The position numbers and the translations under genes were made by a program. Below, piece by piece: positions 1-64,000 of a stretch of 64,000 nucleotides of DNA. The stretch is taken from contig JAFRXO010000006.1 in the NCBI GenBank assembly GCA_017443465.1, forward strand, positions 1 through 64,000. The letters run 5' to 3'. The notes under the pieces are model-generated. The model made no database searches, was not told the origin of the DNA, and saw only the letters and a list, made by a program, of their open reading frames with translations. Every line of letters starts with the position of its first letter. The first letter of the stretch is position 1. Origin of the DNA: Bacteroidales bacterium (GTDB lineage: Bacteria; Bacteroidota; Bacteroidia; Bacteroidales; UBA932).

Positions 1-118
1 AGGGCGGAAAAAGCAGATTATCGTTTTGATTGTAAGATTTAAAGACTACCTTTGCCATTGCTGATATATATTCTTTCTTTTTCGCAACTACAAGATAGTA
101 ATTATTTATCAGAAAAGC

Positions 119-155
119 AATAGCTATCCGATTGAATTTCACAAGGATAGCTATT
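119..155. terminator. Hairpin, probable terminator
   Basis: Inverted repeat with 11-bp perfect arms AATAGCTATCC (119-129) and GGATAGCTATT (145-155), loop 15 nt, followed on the plus strand by a T-rich stretch. It could end a gene lying left of the window. Confidence 0.5.
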
Positions 156-198
156 TATTTTAAATGCCCAGCCTTTATCTGGAAGAATTTGTACAAAA

Positions 199-241
199 AA
201 GAGGATGACCTCAAGTCCTAAGACTTTTTAGTCACCCTCTT
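199..241. terminator. Hairpin, probable terminator
   Basis: Arms AAGAGGATGAC (199-209) and GTCACCCTCTT (231-241) pair except at one position. A second stem AAGTC/GACTT with loop CTAA sits inside (213-226). An A-run precedes it (195-200), so on the minus strand it is followed by a T-run. Confidence 0.45.
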
Positions 242-243
242 AT

Positions 244-400
244 TGTGAGATATAGTCCACTTATTGAGGGGGCGTTCCCCCTCAAGCTCCCCTGAACTCG
301 CTTCGCTCGGACGCAGGCTCTCGGCCTGCTTTTTTTGTGAGATATGCTTCATTCATTGAGGGGCGTACCCCTCAAACTCCCTGAACTCGCTTCGCTCGGA
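244..400. repeat. Two diverged 65-bp direct repeats
   Basis: Copies at 244-311 and 336-400 both begin TGTGAGATAT and end GAACTCGCTTCGCTCGGA. Each carries an internal stem-loop: TTGAGGGGG-CGTT-CCCCCTCAA (264-285) and TTGAGGGG-CGTA-CCCCTCAA (356-375). The loops keep CGT and both arms changed together (9 bp against 8 bp), so the hairpin appears to be conserved rather than the exact sequence. Function unknown. Confidence 0.8.
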
Positions 401-609: not shown

Positions 610-1182
610 CTAGTCCAGCATGAGTCCGTGCCTGACCTGGCGGACGGCTTCTTCCCCTTTCAGTTTCCTCAGGATTTCCAGTCCGAATTCGATCGCGCAT
701 CCGGCACCGCGTCCTGTAACCAGGTTCCCGTCAGCTACCGCCTTCTGGCAGAGGTACTGAGCTCCCTTGTCCAGCAAATAACCCTCGAATCCGTCAAAGC
801 AGGTGAATTTCCTCCCCTCCAGTCCGGGCAGCTGGGAGACAACGAGCCCCGGTGCTGCGCATATGGCAGCAACGATCCCTCCCTGGGCGAAATGTTCGCG
901 CATCAGATCGATCAATCCAGAGTGTGCTGCCAGGTTGCGTGTTCCGGGCATGCCTCCGGGGAAGATCATCACATCCTCCGGACCGGTTTCATCCTTCGCT
1001 GACGGAAGTTCGGCATATGTCATGTCAGCCGTGACTGTGATACCGTGCGAGGACGTCACCATATAGGAATCCGAAATAGAAACGGTCTTGACATCCAGGG
1101 AACCTCTCCTGAGGACGTCGATGGTGCAGATGGCTTCCATGTCTTCGAAACCGTCTGCCAGGAAAATGTGAATGCCTTTCAT
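610..1182 (-). CDS. DJ-1/PfpI family protein (YajL-like)
   Basis: A 190-residue protein spanning one DJ-1/ThiJ domain. The nucleophile-elbow cysteine is C108 in AAICAAPG and the acid that lowers its pKa in this family is E16 in GFEDMEA. The GGMPG loop near residue 77 is also typical. Family members include Cys-dependent chaperones, glyoxalases and disputed deglycases. Length and motifs fit the YajL/DJ-1 branch better than PfpI proteases, but the exact substrate cannot be read from sequence. It is the last gene of a minus-strand pair, 13 nt downstream of the YugP-type peptidase gene, and probably cotranscribed with it. Confidence 0.88.
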   Translation of the reverse strand: MKGIHIFLADGFEDMEAICTIDVLRRGSLDVKTVSISDSYMVTSSHGITVTADMTYAELPSAKDETGPEDVMIFPGGMPGTRNLAAHSGLIDLMREHFAQGGIVAAICAAPGLVVSQLPGLEGRKFTCFDGFEGYLLDKGAQYLCQKAVADGNLVTGRGAGCAIEFGLEILRKLKGEEAVRQVRHGLMLD

Positions 1183-1195
1183 ATTAAATTAATTA

Positions 1196-1894
1196 TCAGT
1201 CCCTTCCGCGTCCAAGAGAGATATAGTACAACAGGGTAGCCAGAGAGCCGAGGGCCGAGATGACATATGTGTATGCCGCCCATTTGAGCGCATCGGTGGC
1301 AAGGGGCAGGGTAGCAACGTCGGAGACACCTGAGCTCCGCAGCCATGAGACCGCTCTCTGGGAGGCGTTGATCTCTACGGGAAGGGTTACAAGGCTGAAT
1401 AAGGTGGACATTGCGAACAATGCCACACCGAGCCAGAATATTCCGGGGAAAATGCTGATTACCATCAGTCCGGCCATCAGAACCCACATGACTATGTTGT
1501 TGCTGAAAGAGACTACCGGCACCAGGGCTGAACGCATTTTCAGCGGAGCATATCCGGTGGCGTGCTGGATGACATGGCCGCACTCATGCGCTGCAATCGC
1601 AGCGGCGGCTATGGATGCCCTTCCGTAAACACCCTCGCTCAGGTTCACCGTCTTGTTGACAGGATTGTAATGGTCCGTGAGCTGCCCGGGAATGGAAACT
1701 ATCTGCACATCGTATATCCCATTGTCATGGAGCATCTTCTGCGCTACCTGGGCGCCGGTCATGCCATTAGGGGTACGAACCTGAGAGTATTTGTGGAAAC
1801 GGGAATTCAGGGTTGACTGGATGAGCCAGCTCAGGATCATGACCAGTCCCATGATTATCCATATCGAATAGCCGCTGAGTAATGATGAATCCAT
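1196..1894 (-). CDS. YugP-type membrane zinc metallopeptidase
   Basis: A 232-residue membrane protein of the neutral zinc metallopeptidase family named after Bacillus YugP. The zinc motif HECGH lies at residues 103-107 in AIAAHECGHVIQ. One hydrophobic segment lies at about residues 9-26, and further segments follow the active site (about 125-175 and near the C-terminus), placing the active site at the membrane. Family substrates are unknown; a role in membrane protein turnover is inferred. The start ATG at 1894 has a good upstream promoter (1919-1926). It is followed by the DJ-1-like gene in the same direction. Confidence 0.87.
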   Translation of the reverse strand: MDSSLLSGYSIWIIMGLVMILSWLIQSTLNSRFHKYSQVRTPNGMTGAQVAQKMLHDNGIYDVQIVSIPGQLTDHYNPVNKTVNLSEGVYGRASIAAAAIAAHECGHVIQHATGYAPLKMRSALVPVVSFSNNIVMWVLMAGLMVISIFPGIFWLGVALFAMSTLFSLVTLPVEINASQRAVSWLRSSGVSDVATLPLATDALKWAAYTYVISALGSLATLLYYISLGRGRD

Positions 1895-1918
1895 AATTGT
1901 TCATTTTATGTTATCATC

Positions 1919-1950
1919 CAAAGATAATAAAAAACGTTATTCCGGCCAAT
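1919..1950 (-). promoter_or_regulatory. Promoter of the YugP-type gene
   Basis: On the minus strand TATCTTTG (1919-1926) matches the Bacteroidetes -7 consensus TAnnTTTG. An ATTG (1947-1950) lies 20 nt upstream as an imperfect -33 TTTG. The -7 box ends 24 nt before the ATG. Confidence 0.6.
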
Positions 1951-1991
1951 AAGTCAGAATAATTTGGTAATTTTACAAATTATTTGACCAT

Positions 1992-3107
1992 ATGGACCAT
2001 TCCGGTGACGATTTTTCACGGCTGGAGCTCAGGCTCCCCAATGCGCTCGAGAACTACAGGTACTTTCGCTCGCGGCTGGAAGCCACGACGAAACTGTTGG
2101 TTCTCGTGAAGGCCAATGCATATGGTCACGGGGCAGTGGAATTCGCGGCTATGATGCAATCGGCTGGCGCTGATTACCTTGCAGTAGCTCTTCCTATCGA
2201 AGGGATGGAACTCCGCAAGGCTGGTATCACCCTGCCTATCCTGGTATTGACCGCCGGCACTGACTTCTTCAATGAGATTATAGACCATCGTCTCGAACCC
2301 GGAATCCCGAATCTTTACACCCTGAAGGCATTGTGTGACGTACTCACTGCACGTGGAATCAAGGACTATCCTATCCATATCAAGTTGGATACTGGAATGC
2401 ACAGGCTGGGTTTCATGACTTCGGAACTGCCTGACTTGATTGCTTTCCTTAACGGGACCGACCGCGTCCGTGTGAAATCAGTGTATTCCCATCTGGCAGT
2501 TGCCGAGGATCCCGCCTGGGATGAGTTTACCCTAGGGCAGATCGGGATGTTCCGCCGGAATGCCGAAGACCTGGGAGAGGGGATCGGTTACAAGCCTATG
2601 TGGCATATCCTGAATTCCGCCGGCATAGAGCGTTTCCCGCAGTACCAGTTCGATATGGTCCGCCTGGGTATAGGCATATATGGGATCAGCTCCCTTCCAG
2701 GAGTTTCTCTCGCCCCGGTTGCATCCCTAAAGTGCAAGATATTGCAGATAAAGACCTTGACTGCATCCGACGGTGCGATCGGGTACGGCCAGCACGGGCC
2801 CATAGCCCCTGAGGGGACGGTAATCGCCACCATACCTGTAGGTTATGCCGACTGCGTGGACCGCAGGTTCGGCTGCGGCCGCGTTTCGTTCAGCGTGAAC
2901 GGCCATAGGGTCCCGACTATCGGAAACATATGCATGGATATGTGCATGATTGATGTGACCGGCGTACCGGCTGCGGTAGGGGACACTGTAACTATTTTCG
3001 GAGAGGATCCTACTGTATCCGAACTTGCGGACATCCTGGGAACTATCCCATATGAAATCTTCACGTCCGTCCCGCGCCGTATCGAGCGCGTCGTGATCCG
3101 CCGCTGA
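1992..3107 (+). CDS. alr: Alanine racemase
   Basis: A 371-residue PLP-dependent racemase that interconverts L- and D-alanine for peptidoglycan. K40 in VLVKANAYGHG is the Schiff-base lysine and Y285 in IPVGYAD is the opposing catalytic tyrosine. Length equals the usual Alr. Unlike many Bacteroidetes, there is no fused MurF domain upstream. It stands alone on the plus strand, convergent with tadA, their stops separated by one base. The start ATG is inside a CATATG hexamer; a later start would cut into the first barrel strand. Confidence 0.95.
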   Translation: MDHSGDDFSRLELRLPNALENYRYFRSRLEATTKLLVLVKANAYGHGAVEFAAMMQSAGADYLAVALPIEGMELRKAGITLPILVLTAGTDFFNEIIDHRLEPGIPNLYTLKALCDVLTARGIKDYPIHIKLDTGMHRLGFMTSELPDLIAFLNGTDRVRVKSVYSHLAVAEDPAWDEFTLGQIGMFRRNAEDLGEGIGYKPMWHILNSAGIERFPQYQFDMVRLGIGIYGISSLPGVSLAPVASLKCKILQIKTLTASDGAIGYGQHGPIAPEGTVIATIPVGYADCVDRRFGCGRVSFSVNGHRVPTIGNICMDMCMIDVTGVPAAVGDTVTIFGEDPTVSELADILGTIPYEIFTSVPRRIERVVIRR

Positions 3108-3108
3108 A

Positions 3109-3543
3109 TCAGCGTTTCGAATTGAAGAATCCGCTTATCAGGCCGGAGCATTCCTCGGTGAGGACTCCGGAAGTGACCTTGGTCTTCGGATGGAGGAGGG
3201 AAGGGGAGAAAAGGGAATAACCCCTCTTCGGGTCGGCAGCACCATATACCAGATGCCCGAGCTGGGCCCAGTTCATCGCGGCAGCACACATCGGGCATGG
3301 CTCGACGGTGACATATAATGTGCAATCATTCAGGTATTTCCCGCCTAGCGCTTCGGTCGCAGCGGTAATTGCGATCATTTCGGCGTGGGCGGTGGGATCG
3401 TGGAGTCTCTCGCTCATGTTGTACCCTTTGGCGATTACCCTGTTCCCGCAGACGATAACTGCTCCTACCGGTACTTCATCCTCCTCAGCGGCTGCCTTCG
3501 CCTGAAGGATCGCTTCCTTCATGTATTTCTCGTCCGCTGTCAT
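3109..3543 (-). CDS. tadA: tRNA-specific adenosine deaminase TadA
   Basis: A 144-residue cytidine/deoxycytidylate deaminase fold enzyme. Zinc and catalytic residues are in TAHAEM (H53, E55) and EPCPMC (C83, C86). The LNDCTLYVTVEPC segment and the KTKVTSGVL tail resemble TadA of Bacteroidetes, which converts A34 to inosine in tRNA-Arg. A guanine deaminase is the main alternative, made less likely by these segments. The ATG at 3543 lies 59 nt inside the upstream acyl-CoA synthetase gene, an unusually long same-strand overlap; an internal ATG at 3522 would still overlap. Confidence 0.88.
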   Translation of the reverse strand: MTADEKYMKEAILQAKAAAEEDEVPVGAVIVCGNRVIAKGYNMSERLHDPTAHAEMIAITAATEALGGKYLNDCTLYVTVEPCPMCAAAMNWAQLGHLVYGAADPKRGYSLFSPSLLHPKTKVTSGVLTEECSGLISGFFNSKR

Positions 3544-5203
3544 CAGCCTGTTTTTCTTTCTTGTCGGTGTAGAGGAACCTGCGGATCTTATGGGTGGCGG
3601 TTTTCTCGAAGGGCTCCTTCATTATTTCCACATCCTTCACCTGGGAAGTCCTGTTCACCCTCTTGTTGATGTACTCCATGATGGCGTTCCGCTTGGCCTC
3701 CAGGTTTTCGAAGAATTTGTCTTCCTTCTCCTGGTCCCAGTCCAGAACCTTGTCATCGAGTTTGATGAGGGCTACCAGCCGTCCGTCCCTCTCGACTACG
3801 AGGGAGTCATTGACTCCGGAGTAATTGTTGATGACCTGCTCGATTTCCTCAGGATAAATGTTTTCTCCGGAAGGTCCGACTATCATGTTCCCGAGGCGTC
3901 CCTTAATATAGTATCGGCCCTTGCTGTCAACTGAAGCCAGGTCATTGGTCCTGAACCATCCGTCCGGGGTGAGGGCGGCACGTGTACGCTGCGGGTCTTT
4001 GTAATAGCCTAGCATGACGTTGTTTCCGTTCACCACTATCTCTCCCTCTCCGGTCTTCGGATTGACGTTCTGGAGTTTGACTTCGACTCCATATGCCGGC
4101 ACTCCGCAGGAGCCGACTACAGTCTTTCCGACACAGGCATTGGTGATCAGAGGTGCGGTCTCGGTCAGGCCGTATCCGATTGCATATGGGAAATGGGCTT
4201 TCTTGAGGAAGGATTCGACTTCGGGATCCAGTTTCGCTCCACCTACCCCGAAGAAGCGCAGCCTGCCACCCATAGACTTGTAAAGCCTCCGTCCTACGAG
4301 CCAGTAAAGCAGGTGGGGAGTTTTCTTCTCCATCCATGACAGGATGCGGCTCTTGGCAATGGTAGGAACTATGGAAGCCCTGTAGATCTTCTCGATAATC
4401 AGCGGGACGGAACACATTATCGTTGGCTTCACCTTCTTGACTGCATCCATGAGGATGGAAGGAGTGGGCGGGCGCTGGATGTAATAGACGCATCCTCCTG
4501 CGTAGAGGGGATAGAGGAGGCTGAAGGCCATTTCATATGTGTGCGCCATAGGCAGGATGGAAAGCCACCTGTCCTTCGGCCCCGCTTTCTGGGCATGGGC
4601 CGCTGCGATAATGTTCACACAGAGGTTCCGGTGTGACAGCATAACCCCCTTCGCATTTCCGGAAGTGCCTGAGGTATAGAAGATTGCAGCTAGGTCATCC
4701 GGCAGGGGATCTTTAACGACCCCGTCACAGGTGAAGGCCTCATCGTCAGCCTTGATTATCTCGAAAGTCTCGATGTCAATCACGAGGGTAAGCTTCTGCT
4801 TGCATTCTTCGCTGAGTTTGGGAAGCAGGCGCTTCGAAATGAACAGAGCCTTTGCGCTGGAGTGGGTGAGGATGTTAGTGACTTCGCTTTCGGAGGATTC
4901 TGCCAGGATTGGAACAAATATCCTTCCGAAGGGCACCACGGAGAACATCGCAACCGTCCAGTTCGGCATGTTCTGTGACATCAGTGCTACCTTGTCCCCG
5001 GCACTGACATTGAACCTGGAGAGAAGGTGCGACAGGTCGAGGCACTTCTTGCGGAATGAAGCATATGTGTGTGCCTGTGTACCGTCTATGTACTGTGAAA
5101 GCGGCCTCTTTGCAAAGGCAATGGTGGAGTATTCGAAAAGCTTCGCAAGTGTCGTGATGTAATTCTCGCGATTTGTAGTCAGACGTCTGTAGAAGCTGTT
5201 CAT
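3485..5203 (-). CDS. Long-chain acyl-CoA synthetase (AMP-forming)
   Basis: A 572-residue adenylate-forming enzyme that activates fatty acids with ATP and CoA. The AMP-binding P-loop IFYTSGTSGNAKG begins near residue 174, followed by the conserved YGLTETAP motif and the WFRTNDLASVDSKGRYYIKGR hinge region. FadD-like length. The C-terminal tail (after TATHKIRRFLY) is polar and overlaps tadA. Directly upstream, 10 nt away, is a PlsC-like acyltransferase, so the two probably supply and use acyl groups for phospholipid or lipid A-like products. No membrane segment is evident. Confidence 0.9.
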   Translation of the reverse strand: MNSFYRRLTTNRENYITTLAKLFEYSTIAFAKRPLSQYIDGTQAHTYASFRKKCLDLSHLLSRFNVSAGDKVALMSQNMPNWTVAMFSVVPFGRIFVPILAESSESEVTNILTHSSAKALFISKRLLPKLSEECKQKLTLVIDIETFEIIKADDEAFTCDGVVKDPLPDDLAAIFYTSGTSGNAKGVMLSHRNLCVNIIAAAHAQKAGPKDRWLSILPMAHTYEMAFSLLYPLYAGGCVYYIQRPPTPSILMDAVKKVKPTIMCSVPLIIEKIYRASIVPTIAKSRILSWMEKKTPHLLYWLVGRRLYKSMGGRLRFFGVGGAKLDPEVESFLKKAHFPYAIGYGLTETAPLITNACVGKTVVGSCGVPAYGVEVKLQNVNPKTGEGEIVVNGNNVMLGYYKDPQRTRAALTPDGWFRTNDLASVDSKGRYYIKGRLGNMIVGPSGENIYPEEIEQVINNYSGVNDSLVVERDGRLVALIKLDDKVLDWDQEKEDKFFENLEAKRNAIMEYINKRVNRTSQVKDVEIMKEPFEKTATHKIRRFLYTDKKEKQADDSGREIHEGSDPSGEGSR

Positions 5204-5213
5204 AGGTGTTCGG

Positions 5214-5798
5214 TTAATGGGTTATGAAGCGCTCCGGGTGCTTTCCCTGGATGTGCATGTCCTCGTAGATCTGCTGTATCCTGGTCATGTCCGCGCGGGC
5301 GTCGTCCGACAACTCGAATTTCTCACCGCAGCTTATCCTCTTGGTGCCCCAGTCGAAATACGCGAGATAAACGGGAACACCTGCTTCTTTTGCGATGGTG
5401 TGGAATCCTGTCTTCCAGCGCTTCACGGGTTTGCGGGTCCCTTCTGGAGCAATGGCGAGGATGAACTCATCCTCTTTTTCCATCTCCGAAATGAGGCTTC
5501 TTACGAGTGTCGTTGCGTTGGTCCTGTCAACCGGTATGCCTCCCATCTTTCGAAGCAGCCCTCCGAGGGGCCAGAAGAATAGCTCCTTCTTGACTATGAC
5601 CCTGGCTTTCTGCTTGCCATATGAAGTGTAGAAAAAGTAGGACACCACGAAGTCCCAGAGGGAAGTGTGAGGAACCCCCAGAAGGACTGCCTTCTTTTCC
5701 GGGACAGGTCCTCCGACGCGGGTCCAGCCCATCTTTTTCAGCACCCACCCGCAGAAACGGGCCCATCGTGCTTTGCGCGTACTGTTTCCTTCACTCAT
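5214..5798 (-). CDS. PlsC-like 1-acylglycerol-phosphate acyltransferase family
   Basis: A 194-residue acyltransferase of the glycerol-3-phosphate acyltransferase superfamily. The catalytic HX4D is H44-TSLW-D49 in GVPHTSLWDF and the substrate-binding motif APEGTRK has E119-G-T121. It is shorter than classical PlsC and resembles the group of small Bacteroidetes acyltransferases with unknown acceptor. Probably membrane-associated by a hydrophobic stretch around residues 38-60. It lies 7 nt after parE and 10 nt before the acyl-CoA synthetase. Confidence 0.85.
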   Translation of the reverse strand: MSEGNSTRKARWARFCGWVLKKMGWTRVGGPVPEKKAVLLGVPHTSLWDFVVSYFFYTSYGKQKARVIVKKELFFWPLGGLLRKMGGIPVDRTNATTLVRSLISEMEKEDEFILAIAPEGTRKPVKRWKTGFHTIAKEAGVPVYLAYFDWGTKRISCGEKFELSDDARADMTRIQQIYEDMHIQGKHPERFITH

Positions 5799-5805
5799 AT
5801 GCAGA

Positions 5806-7731
5806 TCAGATGTTTATGTCCTCCAGTTCGACTTCTGAACGCAGGTTCTTGCGGATGAAGTTCTGGCGCTCGATGGTGTTGTCTCCCATGTAGAACTCCA
5901 TTATCTGGGATATGGATTCCTCATCGCTGAGTTTCACAAGGTCGAGCCTCATGCCTTCTCCTATGAAGTCGGTGAATTCATTCGAAGAAATCTCTCCCAA
6001 GCCTTTGAAGCGGGTTATCTCGGGCTTGTCCTTGATTTCCTTGAGGGCTTTGGCCCTCTCGTCATCATTATAGCAGTAACGTGTTTCCTTCTTGTTGCGG
6101 ACCCTGAAGAGGGGAGTCTGGAGGATGAAAACGTGGTCACGGCGGATGAGGTCCGGGTAGAACTTCATGAGGAAGGTCAGCACCAGCATGCGGATATGCA
6201 TTCCGTCATCATCGGCATCGGTCGCTATGATGATGTTGTTGTAACGGAGCCCGTCCATGTCATCCTCTACTCCTAGGGCGGAGATAAGGAGGTTAAGTTC
6301 CTCATTCTCAGCAACCCTCTTGCGGCTCTCCTTGAAAGAGTTGATAGGCTTTCCCCTGAGGCTGAACACAGCCTGGTAGTCGGCATTCCTGGCCTTTGTG
6401 ATGGTCCCTGAAGCGGAGTCACCCTCGGTTATGAATATGCTCGATTTCTCACCCATCTCCTCCTTCCCCTTGGGAAGCTTGTCGCTGAAGTGGAAGCGGC
6501 AGTCGCGGAGCTTGCGGTTATAGACGTTGGCTTTCTTGTTGCGCTCGCGGGTCTTCTTCTGGATCCCGGAGATCTCCTCCCTTTCCTTCTGCGACGCCTT
6601 GATCTTCTCCTCTATGGTGGGGACGATGTCCATATGCATATGGAGGTAATTGTCCAGATGCTTGGCTATGAAATCGTTGACGAAAGTCCTGATGGTAGGT
6701 CCGCGGTCTATAGATGCGGATCCGTCAGCGTTGCGTATCGTCTTTCCGGAGGCGTCAGTCTCCTCTTTTTCCCACATATAGGTGGATCCCAGCTTTGTCT
6801 TGGTCTGGCCTTCGAAGTTGGGCTCCTGGATCTTGATGCTTATGGCTCCGACTATTCCCTGGCGGCAGTCCTCAGGAGCGTAGTTCTTCTTGAAGAACTC
6901 CTTGAGGGTCTTTGCTATAGCTTCGCGGAAAGCTGCCAGGTGGGTTCCTCCGTCGCGGGTGTTCTGCCCGTTGACGAAGGAGGTGATGTCCTCACCGTAA
7001 TTGTTGTCATGGGTGAGGACCACTTCTATGTCATCGTCTTCCAGGTGGATAGGCGGATAGAGGGGCGGTTCGGCGAGAGCTTCGTTTACAAGGTCCAGAA
7101 GGCCGTTCTGGGACTTGTAGGCAGTTCCGTTCAGGACAAGGGACAGTCCCTTGTTGAGGTAAGAATAGTTCTTTACCATAGTCTGGACGAAATCCATGTT
7201 GAAATCGAACGCTCCGAACATCTCGTTGTCCGGAATGAATCTCACCATGGTGCCGTTCTTCTCGGAGACTGACTCCCTTTTGCCGCTGTCCACAAGTTCA
7301 CCTCTGGAATAGGAGGCCCAGGAACTCTCTCCGTCACGGAAAGATTCCACATAGAACTTGGAGGACAGGGCGTTGACCGCCTTGGAACCGACGCCGTTGA
7401 GTCCTACGGATTTCTTGAATACGGCAGTGTCGAATTTCGCTCCGGTCATCAGGACACTGGTAGCGCGAACGACTGAATCCAGCGGGATGCCGCGGCCGAA
7501 ATCCCTGACAGTTACTTCCTTGTCCTGGATGTCGACCTTGATCTGCTTCCCGAATCCCATGGCGAATTCATCGATGGAATTGTCGATGATCTCCTTGAGA
7601 AGGACATATATGCCGTCTCCGGGGTTCGAACCGTTCCCCAGGCGTCCGATGTACATTCCGGGACGTCTGCGGATGTGTTCGATCCCTTCAAGGGTCCGTA
7701 TGTTGGCGTCAGTATAAAGTGGTTCCGGCAT
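5806..7731 (-). CDS. parE: DNA topoisomerase IV subunit B
   Basis: A 641-residue type IIA topoisomerase ATPase subunit. The GHKL ATP site includes E47 and N51 in KEIIDNSIDEF, and GLNGVGSKAVNAL. The TOPRIM domain has EGDSASG (about residue 435) and DADDDG (about 505). The LYTDANIRTLEGIEHIRRRPG opening and the TRYCYND segment are ParE-like. Its partner parC is not in the window. GyrB is the alternative but typical GyrB features such as the longer C-terminal insert are absent. Start codon is 1 nt from the tpiA stop. Confidence 0.88.
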   Translation of the reverse strand: MPEPLYTDANIRTLEGIEHIRRRPGMYIGRLGNGSNPGDGIYVLLKEIIDNSIDEFAMGFGKQIKVDIQDKEVTVRDFGRGIPLDSVVRATSVLMTGAKFDTAVFKKSVGLNGVGSKAVNALSSKFYVESFRDGESSWASYSRGELVDSGKRESVSEKNGTMVRFIPDNEMFGAFDFNMDFVQTMVKNYSYLNKGLSLVLNGTAYKSQNGLLDLVNEALAEPPLYPPIHLEDDDIEVVLTHDNNYGEDITSFVNGQNTRDGGTHLAAFREAIAKTLKEFFKKNYAPEDCRQGIVGAISIKIQEPNFEGQTKTKLGSTYMWEKEETDASGKTIRNADGSASIDRGPTIRTFVNDFIAKHLDNYLHMHMDIVPTIEEKIKASQKEREEISGIQKKTRERNKKANVYNRKLRDCRFHFSDKLPKGKEEMGEKSSIFITEGDSASGTITKARNADYQAVFSLRGKPINSFKESRKRVAENEELNLLISALGVEDDMDGLRYNNIIIATDADDDGMHIRMLVLTFLMKFYPDLIRRDHVFILQTPLFRVRNKKETRYCYNDDERAKALKEIKDKPEITRFKGLGEISSNEFTDFIGEGMRLDLVKLSDEESISQIMEFYMGDNTIERQNFIRKNLRSEVELEDINI

Positions 7732-7732
7732 T

Positions 7733-8488: not shown

Positions 8489-8517
8489 GTTTTTTCCGGT
8501 TATGATAACGTATTTGG

Positions 8518-8549
8518 CAAATTTACTCAATTCTTCAGATTAATTCAAT
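8518..8549 (-). promoter_or_regulatory. Promoter of the tpiA operon
   Basis: TAAATTTG on the minus strand (8518-8525) matches the -7 consensus, with ATTG (8546-8549) 20 nt upstream. The box ends 29 nt before the tpiA ATG. Confidence 0.6.
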
Positions 8550-8557
8550 AAAATGGC

Positions 8558-8565
8558 TAACTTTG
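8558..8565 (+). promoter_or_regulatory. -7 box of the tyrS promoter
   Basis: TAACTTTG, a full match to TAnnTTTG, ends 19 nt before the tyrS ATG. No clear -33 TTTG. The divergent tpiA -7 box is 32 nt away. Confidence 0.6.
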
Positions 8566-8584
8566 CATTCCAAATTGACATCTG

Positions 8585-54680: not shown

Positions 54681-54688
54681 CAAATATA
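54681..54688 (-). promoter_or_regulatory. -7 box of dnaN
   Basis: TATATTTG on the minus strand ends 28 nt before ATG 54652. Directly upstream are two copies of a 15-bp motif (54687-54721). Confidence 0.6.
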
Positions 54689-54721
54689 GGAAATAATCTC
54701 GATTTAGGAAATATTCTCGCA
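54687..54721 (-). repeat. Paired direct repeats upstream of dnaN
   Basis: TAGGAAATAATCTCG (from 54687) and TAGGAAATATTCTCG (from 54706) differ at one or two bases and are 19 bp apart, just upstream of and touching the dnaN -7 box. Spacing near two helical turns suits binding of a dimeric regulator. Confidence 0.6.
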
Positions 54722-54804
54722 TCACGAAAACATTTCTTTTACCGCGAGTGGCATGTAATTTGAAAAATTCGTCCCCCGGAAAACAAATGTTAAAATTCGG
54801 AAAT

Positions 54805-56274: not shown

Positions 56275-56298
56275 AAGATTAACCATTAGAGTCTTTCG

Positions 56299-57159
56299 AT
56301 GAGACAACTTAAGATTACCAAATCGATCACCAACCGCGAGAGCGCTTCTCTTGACAAGTACCTGCAGGAGATTGGACGCGAAGAGTTGGTCACACCTGAA
56401 GAAGAAGTCGAACTTGCCCAGCGCATCCGCAAAGGCGACCAGAAGGCCCTGGAAAAACTTACGAGAGCCAATCTGAGATTCGTAGTGTCGGTTGCCAAGC
56501 AATACCAGAACCAGGGGCTTTCCCTGCCTGACCTGATCAATGAAGGGAACCTCGGCCTCATAAAGGCCGCCGAAAAGTTCGACGAGACACGCGGTTTCAA
56601 GTTCATATCCTATGCGGTGTGGTGGATCCGCCAGTCTATTCTCCAGGCCCTGGCAGAACAGTCCAGGATCGTCAGGTTGCCTCTCAACCAGGTAGGCTCG
56701 CTTAACAAAATCAACAAGGCGCTCTCCAAATTCGAACAGGAGAACGAACGCCAGCCATCCAACGAAGAGCTGTCGGAGATGATCGATGTCCCCAAGGACA
56801 AGATCTCCGACACTCTCCGTGTTTCAGGCCGTCACGTATCGGTGGACGCTCCTTTCGTGGAAGGAGAGGACAACTCCCTTCTGGACGTCCTTCCGAACGA
56901 GGATTCCCCAAATGCTGACAGGGGACTAGAGAACGAGTCTCTCAGCACCGAGATCGACCGTGCCCTCCAGATCCTTACCCTTCGCGAGAGGGAGATAATC
57001 AAGTCCTTCTTCGGCATCGGATGCCAGGAGATGACCCTCGAGGAGATAGGGGAGAGGCTTGACCTGACCCGGGAGCGTGTCCGCCAGATCAAGGAAAAGG
57101 CTATCCGCAAATTAAAGAAACCCTCTGCGAGCAAGTTGCTCAAGGCTTATCTCGGTTAA
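56299..57159 (+). CDS. rpoD: Primary RNA polymerase sigma factor
   Basis: 286 residues, the short group-1 sigma (sigma-ABfr) of Bacteroidetes, which lacks region 1.1 and the long non-conserved insert. Region 1.2 [20 protein letters not shown], region 2 ([32 protein letters not shown]), region 3 and region 4.2 ([19 protein letters not shown]) are all present. It directs initiation at TTTG/TAnnTTTG promoters, which occur throughout this window. Between htrA and argS. Confidence 0.96.
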
Positions 57160-57169
57160 CAGAAACAGT

Positions 57170-58960
57170 ATGACACCTGAATCTTTCATAGCTTCCAAGG
57201 CCTCCGAGGCCTTGAAAGCTTTGTTCAATGTTGAGGCAGACGCCTCATCCCTGCAGGTGCAGGTCACCAGGAAGGAATTCACCGGGGATTTCACCCTTGT
57301 GGTCTTCCCTCTTCTCAAACTAGTCCGCAGGGCTCCTGAGGCTCTGGGTACGGCGATCGGCGACTGGTTCCTGGAGAATGTCCCGGAGGTGTCGGCCTAC
57401 AACTGCATGAAGGGTTTCCTCAACATGTCCCTTTCTCCGCTGTACTGGAGCGAAGCATTCCTCGGCATCGTCGGGGACGCGGATTTCGGGACGCTGCCTT
57501 CTTCCGGAAAGAGGGTGATGGTGGAGTTCTCTTCGCCCAATACCAACAAGCCCCTCCACCTCGGACATATCCGCAACAATCTCCTCGGTGACTCTGTCTC
57601 CAGGATTCTCAAGGCCAACGGCCACGATGTTGTCAAGGTGACCCTCGTCAACGACAGGGGCATCCACATATGCAAGTCCATGCTGGCATGGCAGATGCGC
57701 GGAAACGGGCAGACTCCGGAGTCCTCCGGGAAGAAGGGAGACCATCTGGTCGGAGATTTCTACGTAGAATTCAACAACATCCTCACCGAGCAGGTAGCTG
57801 AACTGGTGAAGGGTGGCATGTCACCTGACGAAGCGGCCAAGAAAGCTCCATGCATGGAGCAGGCACATGAGATGCTCCGTAAATGGGAAGCCGGCGATCC
57901 CGCCGTCCGCGAGCTCTGGGCCAAGATGAACGGCTGGGTGCTCGAAGGCTTCGACGAGACCTACAAGGCTCTCGGAATCTCCTTTGACAAAGTGGATTAC
58001 GAGCATGATACATATCTTCTCGGAAAGGAACTGGTCCAGAGGGGACTGGAGATGGGAGTCTTTGAAAAGGAGGCTGACGGAAGCGTATGGTGCGACCTGA
58101 CCTCCGACGGGCTCGACCGCAAGCTGGTGCTTCGCGGTGACGGCACTTCAGTCTATATCACCCAGGATCTCGGAACTGCTGAGCGCCGCTTCAGGGAGTA
58201 TCGCCTCGACAGGCACATCTACGTGGTCGGCAATGAGCAGGACTATCATTTCAAGGTCCTGAAGCTCATCCTCTCAAAGCTCGGATTCCAGTGGGCGGAC
58301 GAAATCTATCACCTGTCATATGGAATGGTGGAGCTTCCCGACGGGAAGATGAAATCCCGCGAGGGGACTGTAGTCGATGCGGACGACCTCCTCGAGAGGA
58401 TGTATCTCGAAGCGAAGGCTACTTCGGAAGAGAGCGGTAAGCTGGTGGACATCGATGAGGCCCAGAAAGAAGAGCTTCACAGGATGATCGGCCTCGGCGC
58501 CCTCAAATATTTCATACTCAAGGTGGATCCCAAGAAGACAATGCTCTTCAATCCCCATGAGTCGATCGATTTCAACGGGAACACCGGCCCGTTCATCCAG
58601 TACACCCACGCCAGGATCAGGTCCATCATGAGAAAGGCTGCGGAAAGGGGACTCGACTGCGATCCTTCATCTCTCTCCGGAGAGCTCCCGATGAACGCCA
58701 AGGAGCAGAGGATTGTGAAGATCCTGGGCCAGTATCCTTCCGTAGTCGCACAGGCTGGAGGAGAGCTTTCTCCCTCGCTCATCGCGAATTATGCATATGA
58801 CCTCGCGAAGGAATTCAACCAGTACTATCACGACACGACGGTTCTGGGAGAGACCGACGCACTGGTCCGGAAGGTCAGGCTCGTCCTCGTCGACACTGTG
58901 TCTTCCGTTCTCGAAAAGGCCTCCGGCCTGCTCGGTATAGTTCTTCCTGACAGGATGTAG
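57170..58960 (+). CDS. argS: Arginyl-tRNA synthetase
   Basis: 596 residues, class I synthetase. N-terminal Add1 domain, the SSPNTNKPLHLGHIRNN signature with HLGH at residues 130-133, and the DALR anticodon-binding domain at the C-terminus (NYAYDLAKEFNQYYHDT). The KMSKS position carries KMKSREG, the usual variant in ArgRS. The next gene starts on the base after its stop. Confidence 0.96.
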   Translation: MTPESFIASKASEALKALFNVEADASSLQVQVTRKEFTGDFTLVVFPLLKLVRRAPEALGTAIGDWFLENVPEVSAYNCMKGFLNMSLSPLYWSEAFLGIVGDADFGTLPSSGKRVMVEFSSPNTNKPLHLGHIRNNLLGDSVSRILKANGHDVVKVTLVNDRGIHICKSMLAWQMRGNGQTPESSGKKGDHLVGDFYVEFNNILTEQVAELVKGGMSPDEAAKKAPCMEQAHEMLRKWEAGDPAVRELWAKMNGWVLEGFDETYKALGISFDKVDYEHDTYLLGKELVQRGLEMGVFEKEADGSVWCDLTSDGLDRKLVLRGDGTSVYITQDLGTAERRFREYRLDRHIYVVGNEQDYHFKVLKLILSKLGFQWADEIYHLSYGMVELPDGKMKSREGTVVDADDLLERMYLEAKATSEESGKLVDIDEAQKEELHRMIGLGALKYFILKVDPKKTMLFNPHESIDFNGNTGPFIQYTHARIRSIMRKAAERGLDCDPSSLSGELPMNAKEQRIVKILGQYPSVVAQAGGELSPSLIANYAYDLAKEFNQYYHDTTVLGETDALVRKVRLVLVDTVSSVLEKASGLLGIVLPDRM

Positions 58961-60706
58961 ATGGAAGCTTCCGACCAGGCAGCCTACATGTTCCCGACCA
59001 CGCGTGCTGAGGTCCAGGCGCTTGGGTGGGACTACATAGACATCATCTTCTTTACCGGCGACGCATTCGTCGACCATCCTTCCTTCGGAACCGCCTGCAT
59101 CGCCAGGTGGCTCCAGAAATTCGGTTACAGGATAGCCATCGTCCCCCAGCCCGGCTGGAAGGACGACCTCAGGGATTTCCGCAAGCTTGGCGCCCCGAGG
59201 CTTTATTTCGCAGTGAATTCCGGAGCCATGGATTCCATGGTGAACCATTACACCGCAGCCAAGCGCCTCCGCAGGGACGATGCCTACACTCCCGACGGGA
59301 GGGCCGGGAGACGCCCTGATTATGCCCTTAAAACATATGTCCGGATACTCAAGGAACTCTATCCCGACGTTCCGGTCGTGATCGGCGGGGTCGAAGGCTC
59401 GCTGAGGCGGCTGACTCATTATGACTACTGGCAGGACGCCCTCAAACCCTCCATCCTCAGCGAGAGCGGGGCAGACTGGCTCTGCTACGGGATGGGGGAG
59501 CGTACAATGCTGGAACTCACCCGCGCCATAGACTCGAGGCGGAGCCTCCATGAAATGCGCAGGATCCCCCAGGTAGGATTCTACGCGGACGGAAAGCCCA
59601 AGGTCAAAGATCCAGTAATCCTTCATTCATATGAAGAATGCCTCTCCAGCAAAACCGCCTTCGCCGAGAATTTCCACATTATCGAGACGCAGGCCAACAT
59701 GCTGACTCCCGGCACCCTGGTAGAACCTGTCGGTAATGGATATGTCCAGATAAATCCGCCCCTTCCTCCTGCGACGGAGGATGAGATGGACTCATTCTGG
59801 GACCTTCCTTTCACCAGGATGCCCCATCCCAGGTACAGGGGACACCGGATCCCGGCATATGACATGATCAAGGACTCCATAATCACCCACAGGGGCTGTT
59901 TCGGAGGATGCGACTTCTGCACCATAGCCGCCCACCAGGGCAAGTTCATCCAGTGCAGGAGCGAGAGATCCATTGTCGACGAGGTCCGCAAGCTGGTCAG
60001 GACCCCCGGTTTCTCGGGGAACATTTCGGACCTCGGCGCACCGACTGCGAACATGTACGGAATGCACGGCAAAGACAAGTCCAAATGCGCCATATGCCGC
60101 AGGAAGTCCTGTCTTTTCCCCGTGGCTTGTTCCAACCTGGACCGCTCCCATGCCCGTGTCCTGGGCCTCTACCACAAAGTGGATGCGGTGAAGGGAGTCC
60201 GCCATTCCTACATCGGCTCCGGCATACGCTACGACCTCTTCCTTACCGAGAAAGGCTTCGTGGACGAGACATCCCAGCCATATCTTAAAGAACTGATTCT
60301 CAGGCACACTTCAGGACGTCTGAAGGTCGCTCCCGAGCACACTGAGGACAAAGTGCTCTACTATATGGGAAAGCCGTCCTTCAAGCTCTTCGTCAGGCTG
60401 AAGGAAGAATTCGGGAAGATAGTCCGCGCCGCCGGACTCAAAACGGACATAGTGCCATATTTCATATCCTCGCATCCCGGATGCACCATGCATGACATGC
60501 AGTCGCTGGCCTCGAATCCTGCCCTGAGGGGAGTCTATATGGACCAGGTACAGGACTTTACCCCGACCCCGATGACCACATCTTCGGTAATGTTCTGGAG
60601 CGGAATCGATCCCCGTACTATGAAGCCTGTTTTCGTGGAGCGCGACCCTGAAAGGAAAAAACGTCAGAAATCCTTCTTTTTTTCGCACAAAAGTTTTGAC
60701 ATTTGA
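58961..60706 (+). CDS. ygiQ: YgiQ family radical SAM protein
   Basis: 581 residues. A B12-binding-like N-terminal domain (YIDIIFFTGDAFVDHPSFG) precedes the radical SAM core with C313, C317 and C320 (GCFGGCDFC). GVEGSLRRLTHYDYW and the C-terminal QVQDFTPTPMT are YgiQ hallmarks. Its substrate is not known. Start codon directly follows the argS stop, so it is cotranscribed and likely coupled. Confidence 0.93.
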   Translation: MEASDQAAYMFPTTRAEVQALGWDYIDIIFFTGDAFVDHPSFGTACIARWLQKFGYRIAIVPQPGWKDDLRDFRKLGAPRLYFAVNSGAMDSMVNHYTAAKRLRRDDAYTPDGRAGRRPDYALKTYVRILKELYPDVPVVIGGVEGSLRRLTHYDYWQDALKPSILSESGADWLCYGMGERTMLELTRAIDSRRSLHEMRRIPQVGFYADGKPKVKDPVILHSYEECLSSKTAFAENFHIIETQANMLTPGTLVEPVGNGYVQINPPLPPATEDEMDSFWDLPFTRMPHPRYRGHRIPAYDMIKDSIITHRGCFGGCDFCTIAAHQGKFIQCRSERSIVDEVRKLVRTPGFSGNISDLGAPTANMYGMHGKDKSKCAICRRKSCLFPVACSNLDRSHARVLGLYHKVDAVKGVRHSYIGSGIRYDLFLTEKGFVDETSQPYLKELILRHTSGRLKVAPEHTEDKVLYYMGKPSFKLFVRLKEEFGKIVRAAGLKTDIVPYFISSHPGCTMHDMQSLASNPALRGVYMDQVQDFTPTPMTTSSVMFWSGIDPRTMKPVFVERDPERKKRQKSFFFSHKSFDI

Positions 60707-60724
60707 AAAAATGTCCTAATATTG
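60695..60724 (+). promoter_or_regulatory. Probable promoter of the small acidic protein gene
   Basis: TTTG (60695-60698) - 18 nt - TAATATTG (60717-60724), one mismatch from consensus. The -33 part lies inside the last codons of ygiQ. Confidence 0.45.
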
Positions 60725-60778
60725 TGCCTTAGAAACATGTCCTATTATTAAACGTTGACTTTTAGAAAAAACTAGAAT

Positions 60779-61147
60779 ATGGCCTCAGACACCAAAAGAC
60801 ACAGGGTTGTGAGTTACGAGAACATGAACGAGGCACTCGCTGACACCTTCAACGAGAAATATCCTCACGGGTTCAATGACTTTCTCCCGGATCTGGTAAA
60901 GTATACCAAGCCTGACGGAACTCCTTTCTATGCAGTTACATTGGAGCTCCCCGACGCAGTGTATCTTGTCAAGATCAAGGTGCAGATCGATGATGCAGAC
61001 GACGTTAACCGGTGGCTGGAAGGACAGGAGGATGCCGAAAACGAGCAGGTGGCAGGACCTTCAGGCGATGCCCCGACCGACAACGACACTATCCCCGACG
61101 ATAATATCTCCCAGTACGAACAGTCGGCCGACGATTCTGGGGACTGA
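60779..61147 (+). CDS. Small acidic protein, unknown function
   Basis: 122 residues. An N-terminal folded part (RHRVVSYENMNEALADTFNE, YPHGFNDFLPDLVKYTKPDG, PDAVYLVKIKVQIDDADDV) and a strongly acidic, disordered tail after residue 75. Similar short proteins are common in Bacteroidales, sometimes labelled as primase-like without evidence. No domain assignment is justified. Lies 2 nt before the ClC channel gene. Confidence 0.75.
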   Translation: MASDTKRHRVVSYENMNEALADTFNEKYPHGFNDFLPDLVKYTKPDGTPFYAVTLELPDAVYLVKIKVQIDDADDVNRWLEGQEDAENEQVAGPSGDAPTDNDTIPDDNISQYEQSADDSGD

Positions 61148-61149
61148 TC

Positions 61150-62895
61150 GTGAACGTCAGGGAAATACCGGAGAATCAAAAGCTTCTCATCCTTTCACTC
61201 GTAGTAGGAATTCTCTGCGGGCTCGCCGCAGTACTCCTTCACACTCTCATCCGCGTAATCCATAACGCACTGACTTCCTGGCTCGGAGGAGGGGTTGAAA
61301 CCGTCCTCCTGTTAGTGTATCCCGGAGTGGGCATGCTGCTGGCGATGCTCTTCACCCGCTATGTCATCAAGGACAACATCGGCCACGGAGTCACCAAGGC
61401 CCTTGTGGCTGTCTCCCAGAATGAATCCAGGATCAAGCCACACAACATGTGGTCGTCTATCCTCGCCAGCGCAGTGACCATTGGATTCGGCGGCTCCGTC
61501 GGAGCCGAGGCCCCGATAGTCTACACAGGCGCGGCCATAGGCTCGAACATCGCCCGCAAGATGCATATGTCTTACAGGAGCATGACGATCCTTCTGGGCT
61601 GCGGAGCCGGAGCCGCTATCGCAGGCATATTCAAGGCGCCGCTCGCCGGTGTCCTTTTCACCCTGGAGATCCTGCTGTTCAACATCAGCATGACCTCCAT
61701 GATGCCTCTCCTTCTTTCGACGGTGTCAGCTACGGTGGTGGCCTACATCTTCATGGGGAATTCCACTCCGTTCAGCTGCGTCATAAACGCTTTCTCGCTC
61801 CGGAACATCCCGTTCTACATCCTCCTGGGAGTGTTCTGCGGCTTCATGTCCCTCTATTTCATCCGTACCACCATCAGGCTTGAAGACACTATAGGGAAGA
61901 TGAAGAATCCGTTCAGGAAATGGGGCATATGCGCTCTTTGCGTCGGTGTCCTCATATTCCTGTTCCCCCCGTTGTTCGGAGAGGGCTACGATGCAGTCGG
62001 TGTCCTACTCAACGGTGGTGCGGTGAACTATGACTCGCAGACCTTCCTGGCCGGAATGCTCCATGTCCAGTGGATGGTCCCCCTGTTCTTCCTGATGGTG
62101 ATGTTCTTAAAGGTCTTCTCCATGACCTTCACCAATGCCGGCGGGGGAGTCGGAGGAACCTTCGGACCCACCCTTTTCGTGGGAGCCATAGGCGGTTTCG
62201 TGGTTGCCAGGACCATCAACCTCATCCTTGCGGGGACTTCCTTCACCGTCCCTGAGCAGAATTTCGTAATGGTCGGAATGGCAGGACTCATGGCCGGAGT
62301 CATGCAGGCCCCGATGACCGCCATCTTCCTCATAGCCGAGATGACAGGCGGCTATGAACTCTTCATCCCGCTGATCATTACCGCAACCATTTCCTTCGGC
62401 ACCATACGCATATTCGAGAAGTATTCCATATACTCCAAGCGTATCGCCCACTCGGCCCTCCTGACCCATGACAATGACAAGGCAGTACTTACCCTTCTCA
62501 AGGTCAGGGACTTGATAGAGAAGGATTTCAGCCCGGTCTCCATAGATGCTCCGCTCCGCTCATTCGTCGAGGTCATCTCCCATGCCCGCAGGAACATATT
62601 CCCTGTTGTGGACTCGCGGGGACGCTTCCACGGCTTCGTCTCGCTGGAGGATGTCAGACACGACATGTTCGAGCAGGATCTGTATGATACAAGGCATGTC
62701 TATAATTACATGCATTCTTCGCCTGCATATGTCTATCTCGACGAGCAGATGGACAGCGTCATGGACAAATTCGAGAAAACGGGCGCATGGAACCTCCCGG
62801 TAGTGGACAAAGAAAGGAAGTACATAGGCTTCGTCTCAAAATCCCAGATATTCTCCGCCTACAGGGACGAACTCCGCGAACTCTCGCAAGACTGA
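61150..62895 (+). CDS. ClC-type chloride channel or transporter with CBS pair
   Basis: 581 residues, GTG start. About ten hydrophobic segments to residue ~410, then two CBS domains (about 440-575). Ion-path motifs: GHGVTKAL (where EcClC has GSGIPE), GGSVGAEAPIVYTG with the gating glutamate in GAEAP, and GGGVGGTFGPTLF. A glutamate in FTLEILLFN is at the position of the proton glutamate, suggesting an exchanger. The serine of the anion filter is replaced by histidine. CBS domains usually bind adenine nucleotides. Confidence 0.9.
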   Translation: MNVREIPENQKLLILSLVVGILCGLAAVLLHTLIRVIHNALTSWLGGGVETVLLLVYPGVGMLLAMLFTRYVIKDNIGHGVTKALVAVSQNESRIKPHNMWSSILASAVTIGFGGSVGAEAPIVYTGAAIGSNIARKMHMSYRSMTILLGCGAGAAIAGIFKAPLAGVLFTLEILLFNISMTSMMPLLLSTVSATVVAYIFMGNSTPFSCVINAFSLRNIPFYILLGVFCGFMSLYFIRTTIRLEDTIGKMKNPFRKWGICALCVGVLIFLFPPLFGEGYDAVGVLLNGGAVNYDSQTFLAGMLHVQWMVPLFFLMVMFLKVFSMTFTNAGGGVGGTFGPTLFVGAIGGFVVARTINLILAGTSFTVPEQNFVMVGMAGLMAGVMQAPMTAIFLIAEMTGGYELFIPLIITATISFGTIRIFEKYSIYSKRIAHSALLTHDNDKAVLTLLKVRDLIEKDFSPVSIDAPLRSFVEVISHARRNIFPVVDSRGRFHGFVSLEDVRHDMFEQDLYDTRHVYNYMHSSPAYVYLDEQMDSVMDKFEKTGAWNLPVVDKERKYIGFVSKSQIFSAYRDELRELSQD

Positions 62896-62908
62896 TGTCA
62901 TTACACAT

Positions 62909-64000
62909 ATGAAAGAAATCTACATCAAGCACATATCCGAGCGCCTGGGCGTAAAGGCGTGGCAGGTCGAGAACTGTGTCGGACTCTTTGATGAAGGAGA
63001 CACCATCCCATTCATCAGCCGCTACCGCAAGGAGCGCACAGGAGGCCTTGAGGATGTCGAGATAGCCGAAATCAAGCATTGGGCTGATGTCTTCGATGCT
63101 ATGGAGAAGCGCAAAACCTCCATCCTGGAGACTGTCGCCGCCCAGGAAAAACTTACTCCGGAGCTTCAGGCTGCGATAGAGAACTGCCTGGTTTCCACCG
63201 AGTTGGAAGATCTCTACCTGCCTTACCGTCCAAAGCGTCGTACAAGGGCCTCGGTAGCTCGCGAGAATGGCCTTGAACCTCTTGCTGACAAGATGTTCAC
63301 AGTGTCCGTCCGCAACCTGGAGCAGGAAGCTTCCAAGTATCTCTCCGACAAGGTCCAATCCGTCGAGGAAGCCCTTGCTGGGGCACGTGACATCATAGCC
63401 GAGAGGATCTCTGAATCCGCCCCCGAGAGGGAAGAGATCAGGCGGATTTTCCGCGGACGAAGGATTGTCTCTTCTGCATCCAGGAAAGCGGCAGACAGCC
63501 CTGAAGCCTCCAAGTACAGGTCTTATTTCGATTTCTCTTATCCCATATCCAAGATCCCGTCCCATAATCTCCTTGCAATGCTCAGGGGGGAGAATGAAGG
63601 CTATCTGACAATCCATATAGATGCGGATGTCGAGAAATGCGGCAATAAGCTCTATTACGATTTCTGCCAGGCCCACCGCTATCCCCAGGGAGAACTGGCC
63701 GCGCAGATACGTCAGGCCGTGGACGATGCATATGACCGCCTGATGGCTCCCTCGATCGCCAATGAAGTGATCCGGGAGGCGAAAGAAAAGGCTGATGTGG
63801 AGTCGGTGAATGTCTTCGGAGAGAATCTCAAGCAGCTCCTTCTTTCCCCTCCTGTCGGACAGAAGAGGACAATGGCTATCGACCCCGGTTTCCGCAACGG
63901 CTGCAAGATAGCCTGCCTGGATGCCCAGGGGAATCTGGTCTATCACACCATAATCTATCCTCATCCGCCCCAGAATGAGAAAGTCAAATCCATCATGGCG
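62909..64000 (+). CDS. tex: Tex-like S1 RNA-binding protein (5' part, truncated by window end)
   Basis: The first 364 codons, translated by me, open to the edge of the window. Begins MKEIYIKHISERLGVKAWQV and contains TIPFISRYRKERTGGLEDVE, DLYLPYRPKRRTRASVAREN and the start of the YqgF-like nuclease fold (AIDPGFRNGCKIACLDAQG). Tex binds RNA polymerase complexes and nucleic acid and affects stability of toxin and stress transcripts. The C-terminal HhH and S1 domains should lie beyond 64000. ATG 62909 is 13 nt after the ClC stop. Confidence 0.93.
   Translation, partial: MKEIYIKHISERLGVKAWQVENCVGLFDEGDTIPFISRYRKERTGGLEDVEIAEIKHWADVFDAMEKRKTSILETVAAQEKLTPELQAAIENCLVSTELEDLYLPYRPKRRTRASVARENGLEPLADKMFTVSVRNLEQEASKYLSDKVQSVEEALAGARDIIAERISESAPEREEIRRIFRGRRIVSSASRKAADSPEASKYRSYFDFSYPISKIPSHNLLAMLRGENEGYLTIHIDADVEKCGNKLYYDFCQAHRYPQGELAAQIRQAVDDAYDRLMAPSIANEVIREAKEKADVESVNVFGENLKQLLLSPPVGQKRTMAIDPGFRNGCKIACLDAQGNLVYHTIIYPHPPQNEKVKSIMA

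Follow-up and report, generated by a model that had tools for sequence, protein, structure and literature searches.

The DNA analyzed here (the window) is a stretch of 64,000 bases, positions 1 to 64,000 of contig JAFRXO010000006.1, from a Bacteroidales bacterium (GenBank assembly GCA_017443465.1). The palindromic hexamer CATATG occurs in it 115 times, within open reading frames (ORFs) in all three codon phases, across start codons, and between genes, in places as the tandem CATATGCATATG (Table 1). The genome that holds the window, G000, comprises 2,645,555 bases in 81 contigs (completeness, 96.4%; bin contamination, 2.94%; GC content, ~53%). It is compared below with its sister, G431 (completeness, 79%; genome size known only rounded), and with further relatives; both assemblies are incomplete. 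ORFs were taken from a greedy longest-ORF script, and some of them are wrong; a FimD-like gene at 30734-33085 was displaced in the window shuffle.

Table 1. Coordinates of CATATG copies in the window
Feature	Position	Strand	Basis
Set of 115 CATATG copies	860..63734 (first start 860, last start 63729)		Count; codon-shuffle null; sister conservation (window aligned in part)
CATATG start positions	860, 1014, 1264, 1989, 2119, 2927, 3049, 4090, 4183, 4534, 5062 ... 62726, 62906, 63729
Phase 1 example (NCA-TAT-GNN), commonest phase, 61 of 97 ORF copies	9977..9982		ORF coordinates
Phase 0 example (CAT-ATG, His-Met), 15 of 97	14980..14985		ORF coordinates
Phase 2 example (NNC-ATA-TGN, Ile-Cys), 21 of 97	20768..20773		ORF coordinates
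CAT|ATG over start codon of ORF 1992-3107	1989..1994	+
CAT|ATG over start codon of ORF 5214-5798	5796..5801	-
CAT|ATG over start codon of ORF 25711-26196	25708..25713	+
CAT|ATG over start codon of ORF 38461-39081	39079..39084	-
Tandem CATATGCATATG	6631..6642
Tandem CATATGCATATG between ORFs ending at 44827 and starting at 44941	44876..44887
Tandem CATATGCATATG, first copy over start codon of ORF 44941-46020	44938..44949	+

Excess of CATATG in the window and in the genome

Base composition (GC, 0.536) predicts 13.3 copies of CATATG in the window, and the 115 counted therefore amount to an 8.6-fold excess. The initial annotation, which had counted about 115 by eye against ~13 expected (7- to 9-fold), was accurate, and the three examples of codon phase that it gave, at 9977, 14980, and 20768, fall in phases 1, 0, and 2 by the ORF coordinates. 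The window is not exceptional within its genome, where 4230 copies (~1600 per Mb) are found against ~569 expected by composition; the rest of the genome behaves like the window rather than showing a near-random frequency, and the density in the sister genome is alike at ~1600 per Mb.

Shuffling of codons with the proteins kept leaves 19.6 ± 4.0 (pooled) or 22.3 ± 3.9 (within-gene) copies in the window ORFs, compared to the 97 observed, and the excess is present in each phase (15, 61, and 21 copies in phases 0, 1, and 2, versus 8.1, 6.8, and 4.7 by codon shuffle). When 2080 strand-merged hexamer classes were ranked against the codon-shuffle null in 359 kb of sampled ORFs, CATATG came out at the top (582 versus 121; z about 42), and ranks 2 to 4 were taken by hexamers that overlap it. 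A codon-pair Markov model preserves phase 0 by construction, so the testable phases are 1 and 2. Although this model already absorbs part of the CATATG effect, it falls short in both phases, in the window (61 observed versus 35 expected and 21 versus 13) and in the G000 sample (only 203 of 349 and 87 of 146 predicted), and thus a codon-pair null does not reproduce the count. The concentration of 61 of the 97 copies in one phase could be taken to mean that CATATG merely follows from codon usage, from codon-pair bias, or from signals for translation. We regard this as highly improbable. We reject codon usage and codon-pair bias as the cause because neither null accounts for the count, and the effect reaches every phase as well as start codons and intergenic DNA.

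Among the palindromes proposed as controls of equal composition, GATATC and CTATAG are the better ones and showed no excess over the codon shuffle in the window ORFs, as was also the case for GTATAC and CAATTG. GTATAC makes a poor control, since relatives are depleted in it as well (observed-to-expected ratio [O/E], 0.23 in 13 relatives' stretches, one of which, L032, comes from an enriched genome, G123), and the fair contrast for CATATG is therefore composition or codon shuffles rather than the 79 copies of GTATAC in G000. A mild excess over the codon shuffle was seen in the window ORFs for GAATTC (38 versus 22) and TCCGGA (58 versus 34). As a separate observation, GTATAC (9 versus 73 expected) and CGCTAG with its complement (7 versus 72) are among the most avoided hexamers in the sampled coding DNA of G000.

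The copies are spread at near-Poisson intervals (mean gap, 540; coefficient of variation, 1.04; 638 gaps), and a need for regular spacing is unsupported. The tandem occurs 8 times in the G000 DNA examined, and among gaps shorter than 40 the most frequent length is exactly 6 (8 of the 638 gaps). With regard to a longer consensus, of which the initial annotation saw no sign, only a weak flank preference was found: when the copies of G000 and G431 are pooled, G at -2 (105 versus 66 expected), C at +7 (187 versus 151), and a purine at -1 (46 versus 23) are favored, as is C over T at +6.

Occupancy, base specificity, and retention of the sites

CATATG is near saturation of its synonymously accessible sites in G000. 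Relatives were represented in the occupancy, base, and intergenic comparisons by 35 stretches with GC contents of 50 to 60% (13 from sampled congeners and 22 from GTDB loci), and the contrasts are slightly conservative because the set includes the enriched stretch L032. At sites of the type (Ser/Pro/Thr/Ala)-Tyr-(codon starting with G), CATATG is present in 349 of 461 cases in G000 and in 58 of 598 in relatives; the corresponding figures are 87 of 94 versus 28 of 59 for His-Met and 144 of 212 versus 18 of 257 for Ile-(Cys/Trp). The His-Met dipeptide is itself raised at the protein level (O/E, 1.52 versus 0.57). Tyrosine was claimed to be written as TAT in this context, and indeed TAT accounts for 349 of the 363 Tyr codons found there and for 787 of the 1368 found elsewhere, TAC giving way to TAT mainly in the CATATG context. 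Three stretches pointed out as free of CATATG (9983-12171, 28532-31218, and 55250-57666) are indeed empty, but the ORFs examined there offer only 2, 1, and 1 accessible sites, none of them used, where ~16 would be expected in 7.3 kb from the window average (141 accessible places). With only 4 accessible sites in their 7.3 kb, we rejected the idea that these islands are special regions.

Base specificity was examined at positions 1 to 5 of the hexamer, covering transitions and transversions at positions 1, 2, and 4 and T versus C only at positions 3 and 5. Each testable alternative base is ~3.6- to 25-fold disfavored in G000 (odds ratios versus the CATATG base, 0.04 to 0.09 at positions 2 to 5 and 0.06 to 0.28 at position 1), while the odds ratios in relatives are ~1 (0.77 to 1.69, with extremes of 3.0 and 0.47 at position 4 and 2.2 at position 1). 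Expressed as odds ratios in favor of CATATG at positions 2 to 5, the bias is of the same strength in the two sisters: 21.5, 28.4, 13.0, and 17.8 in G000 and 19.0, 22.1, 14.3, and 23.1 in G431. At positions 1, 2, and 4, transversions are disfavored just as transitions are, and this uniformity suggests that the unit is the hexamer as a whole rather than a single mutable base. On the same grounds, transition-specific conversion by mismatch repair (very-short-patch type) was rejected, and the data are at odds with a repair bias confined to one chemical class (T:G repair, for instance).

The bias also extends beyond the interior of genes. CAT directly precedes the ATG start in 35 of 221 ORFs of G000 and 21 of 157 of G431, compared to 6 of 414 in relatives. 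Strictly intergenic DNA contains 8 copies in 10.7 kb of G000 (3.3 expected by composition), 10 in 7.0 kb of G431 (1.9 expected), and 1 in 17.3 kb of relatives (5.3 expected). The excess is thus found in all three phases, at start codons, and, more weakly, in intergenic DNA, which bears out the proposal that the pressure is on DNA and not on protein or on one codon pair.

In a 59-kb alignment of the two sisters, 77 of the 105 copies in G000 have a CATATG counterpart in G431 and 77 of the 88 in G431 have one in G000, whereas all hexamers together are kept at 40%. The two genomes differ at 42% of four-fold sites, and 90% of aligned codons are identical in amino acid. When synonymous sites were checked, as had been suggested, in places where neither amino acids nor context had changed, the base belonging to CATATG proved to be retained in 105 of 116 cases, compared to 517 of 1070 outside the hexamer (p about 3e-20). 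By class, retention inside versus outside CATATG is 42/44 versus 51/89 for Tyr, 42/45 versus 225/553 for NCA, and 14/18 versus 147/284 for Ile; the value for His, 7/9 versus 94/144, is not significant alone. CATATG ranks 6th in conservation of the 547 hexamers with at least 25 occurrences, the five above it having 25 to 35 occurrences each and CATATG 105; it therefore does not stand out on conservation alone.

A mutational asymmetry, by which CATATG would be shielded from mutation or preferred in mismatch repair without conferring any benefit itself, would suit the turnover between the sisters, as 12 discordant sites among 122 are close to the 8.9 expected if losses were 18-fold reduced (P = 0.19). 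We consider this explanation improbable, since enrichment is lower between genes than at synonymous sites, the opposite of what a pure mutational process would produce. An 18-fold drive acting on gains only is likewise disfavored, with 20.0 discordant sites expected (P = 0.04).

As a separate feature, positions 237-600 of the window hold a repeated element with 35-nt and 25-nt direct repeats, and the part at ~414-595 recurs on six G431 contigs with 76 to 87% identity.

Distribution in the genus and candidate causes

Judging from the PcrA sequence, the genus is probably Cryptobacteroides-like: the best relatives in GTDB among the matches listed are Bacteroidales metagenome-assembled genomes, many from animal guts, with ~53 to 63% identity, two of them designated Candidatus Cryptobacteroides. 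By UvrA, G431 is the sister at 91% identity, while other relatives are at 71 to 77% among the matches listed. Raw counts of CATATG, without GC correction, were obtained for 400 genomes of the genus sampled from a larger group (G000 and 399 other congeners) and range from 12 to 4230. The highest are those of G000 (4230), G431 (3353), G219 (2028), and G388 (1602), and by raw count only G431 nears G000. In 32 genomes from other families of the order, raw counts range from 11 to 1355, and none approaches G000.

Odds ratios by position were determined for six sets only (G000, G431, G123, G219, G304 with G236, and G042); congeners beyond these are represented by raw counts and, for 23 of them, by codon-shuffle ratios on small samples. 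G123 (L032, L337-L344), a distant congener, has the bias at partial strength (odds ratios, 5.8, 79, 2.3, and 9.2; O/E, 4.5), the value of 79 being based on 29 CATATG among 29 His-Met sites, and 47 of its 141 Tyr sites are CATATG. The effect is slight in G219 (2.2, 5.5, 0.7, and 1.7) and absent in G304 and G236. The near relative G042 (L038, L355, L356) avoids the hexamer, with 3 copies in 60 kb, an O/E of 0.22, and odds ratios of 0.5, 0.4, 0.1, and 0.4, as if CATATG were under restriction pressure there. The trait probably dates from the common stem of G000 and G431; the genus contains at least one weaker case besides, and a near relative shows avoidance.

One explanation for the excess of CATATG is molecular drive, in which CATATG would be a short uptake or recombination signal and alleles carrying it would be imported more often, as in Haemophilus and Neisseria. 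The apparent per-copy action, the near-Poisson spacing, and the indifference to the type of base change where testable are consistent with this, and three small contigs in the G000 bin use 1 of 22 accessible sites, as foreign DNA would. We nonetheless think drive unlikely to be the cause: six bases tell self apart poorly, known DNA uptake sequences are longer (9 to 12 bases) and non-palindromic, and by raw count only one of the 399 other congeners comes near.

The three contigs just mentioned, L021 (6506 bp), L169 (6108 bp), and L173 (3044 bp), look foreign or mis-binned. Genes on L169 include one that is AbiEii-like and others for a serpin and a sigma-70-domain protein. A further contig, L167, is intermediate, with 4 of 10 accessible sites used. 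CATATG occupancy can mark foreign or mis-binned contigs in this species.

The parallel with cyanobacterial highly iterated palindromes (HIPs) predicts an orphan methyltransferase, for which the initial annotation had suggested looking, but none was recognized in either incomplete assembly. With regard to the missing METHYLTRANSFERASE, no DNA methyltransferase was recognized in G000 or G431, in which no NdeI-like protein was searched for by sequence. Neither genome has a match to PF01555 (matched in 5 of 16 genomes searched), PF02086 (4 of 16), PF02384 (6 of 12), or PF00145 (7 of 12). With PF07669, all matches in the two genomes fell below the cutoff: one in G431 and two in G000, namely, PrmC and a TrmN6-like small methyltransferase with an MTS domain. 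A family-blind scan of the whole of G000, limited to (N/D)PP(Y/F) and leaving out SPP- and W-type motifs, found 38 + 34 places, versus 34 + 36 for the reversed control (72 versus 70). Ten of the 25 ORFs concerned were run against Pfam, the other 15 having been set aside by eye, and the only methyltransferases among them were RsmD-, PrmC-, and TrmN6-like (we take the names RsmD and TrmN6 to be those that go with the Pfam matches). Wider motifs picked out 17 ORFs in the examined part of G000 and G431, and a search with PF05063 was uninformative, matching no genome and no control. The lack of a methyltransferase is not diagnostic of CATATG-rich genomes, because G033, which has no comparable excess, also lacks matches to PF02384 and PF00145.

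These results bear on the possibility that CATATG is a HIP1-like element accompanied by a CATATG-specific methyltransferase of the NdeI type, absent from the assemblies or too divergent, whose methylation would, in line with Elhai's model, guide mismatch repair or serve some other function. Such an enzyme could have been missed, given the completeness of the two assemblies and the fact that contigs shorter than 3 kb were read as N (8 of 28 G000 stretches and 9 of 46 G431 stretches). In addition, CATATG is under pressure both ways in the genus (from avoidance in G042 to the 4230 copies of G000), as a circulating restriction-modification specificity would cause. On the other side stand the empty family searches and the scans with PF07669 and (N/D)PP(Y/F), which gave only RsmD-, PrmC-, and TrmN6-like enzymes among the G000 ORFs tested. 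On balance we judge this explanation rather unlikely, though more probable than drive or mutational asymmetry.

Our results clearly demonstrate a bias at the DNA level that is large, acts in all codon phases, is indifferent to the kind of base change at positions 1, 2, and 4, leaves near-Poisson spacing, is equally strong in the sister pair, and is accompanied by synonymous retention. The explanation that we favor, with an even chance of being right, is that CATATG is a HIP-type element kept copy by copy by pressure on DNA, exerted via a putative host CATATG-binding factor. Such a specific DNA-binding factor would read the unmodified hexamer, its weak contacts may reach the flanking bases, and each additional copy would independently be slightly favored; an odds bias of ~18-fold would translate into a scaled per-copy advantage of ln 18, about 2.9. 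The benefit of a copy might lie, for example, in chromosome packing or in labeling DNA as self for uptake, recombination, or repair. Methylation would be unneeded. We advance more tentatively, at slightly below an even chance, the fuller proposal of a gut-Bacteroidales iterated palindrome that is near synonymous saturation and methylation-free and in which the per-copy advantage conferred by a CATATG-reading protein shifts dipeptide usage.

Several points weigh against a CATATG-binding factor as the cause. No candidate protein was found, with no direct search made, and cyanobacterial HIPs come with methyltransferases (PMC4390886). The intergenic enrichment (2.4-fold in G000 and 5.3-fold in G431) is well under the ~18-fold of a uniform bias at equilibrium, a shortfall tempered by the depletion of CATATG in the intergenic DNA of relatives themselves. 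The symmetry of the flanks is incomplete, as A is favored at -1 (17 versus 8.4) and its mirror, T at +6, is disfavored (19 versus 38). The turnover between the sisters lies between the values expected for selection (16.7 discordant sites) and for a mutation-protected site (8.9) and does not separate them. Strict selection, biased repair, and uptake drive are accordingly not separated by these data.

Comparison with known iterated sequences

The hexamer is the recognition sequence of the restriction enzymes NdeI and FauNDI (CA^TATG). Restriction would give avoidance, perhaps as in G042, but not accumulation. The DNA uptake sequences of Pasteurellaceae and Neisseriaceae resemble CATATG in the genome-wide excess of one short sequence and in the proposed per-copy drive (PMC1939737). 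In the open-access literature searched, outside which most subscription-journal papers lie, no report of a CATATG HIP was found, and among the matches listed, highly iterated DNA palindromes were described from cyanobacteria only.

HIP1 of cyanobacteria was initially put forward as the closest parallel, and it remains so; selection on HIP1 is reportedly the subject of a later study in Nucleic Acids Research. CATATG is not HIP1 proper (GCGATCGC in a cyanobacterium), as the hexamer differs and the nearest named relatives of its host are Bacteroidales. HIP1 is likewise a genome-wide palindrome, present at 1000 to 2000 per Mb and varying between relatives (PMC4390886). It has 8 bases, is GC-rich, and is common across cyanobacteria, whereas CATATG has 6 bases, is AT-rich, and is at full strength in two Bacteroidales sisters. 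HIP1 is tied to GATC and CGATCG methyltransferases, although some HIP1-rich genomes are without a CGATCG enzyme, and Elhai's model links it to DNA methylation and mismatch repair (PMC4390886).

A further likeness is to the alternate HIPs, such as GGCGCC in Calothrix PCC 7103, rCCGGy in Oscillatoria PCC 10802, and GCsGC in Cyanothece PCC 7822. These are also sporadic palindromes with extreme over-representation in single genomes, the same site often being avoided elsewhere. They are 100% or at least 75% GC, and each of these genomes encodes a methyltransferase that can act on its palindrome (PMC4390886), whereas none was recognized for CATATG in the two incomplete assemblies.

For the question of what purpose HIP1 serves, CATATG provides the case of a HIP without a recognized methyltransferase. 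A sister pair at full strength, a near relative that avoids the hexamer, and a weaker second case within one genus constitute a natural experiment, in which a gene for the putative reader could be sought among those that G000, G431, and G123 share and G042 lacks, and near-saturation allows a direct measure of the per-copy pressure. Compared with the HIP class of Elhai as a whole, CATATG lacks the GC richness (33% GC in a genome of ~53%, versus 75 to 100% for the replacements of HIP1). It shares with that class the frame-independent spread through coding and non-coding DNA and the standing of an extreme outlier palindrome, its ~1600 copies per Mb (z about 42) falling within the range of about 500 to 2500 per Mb.

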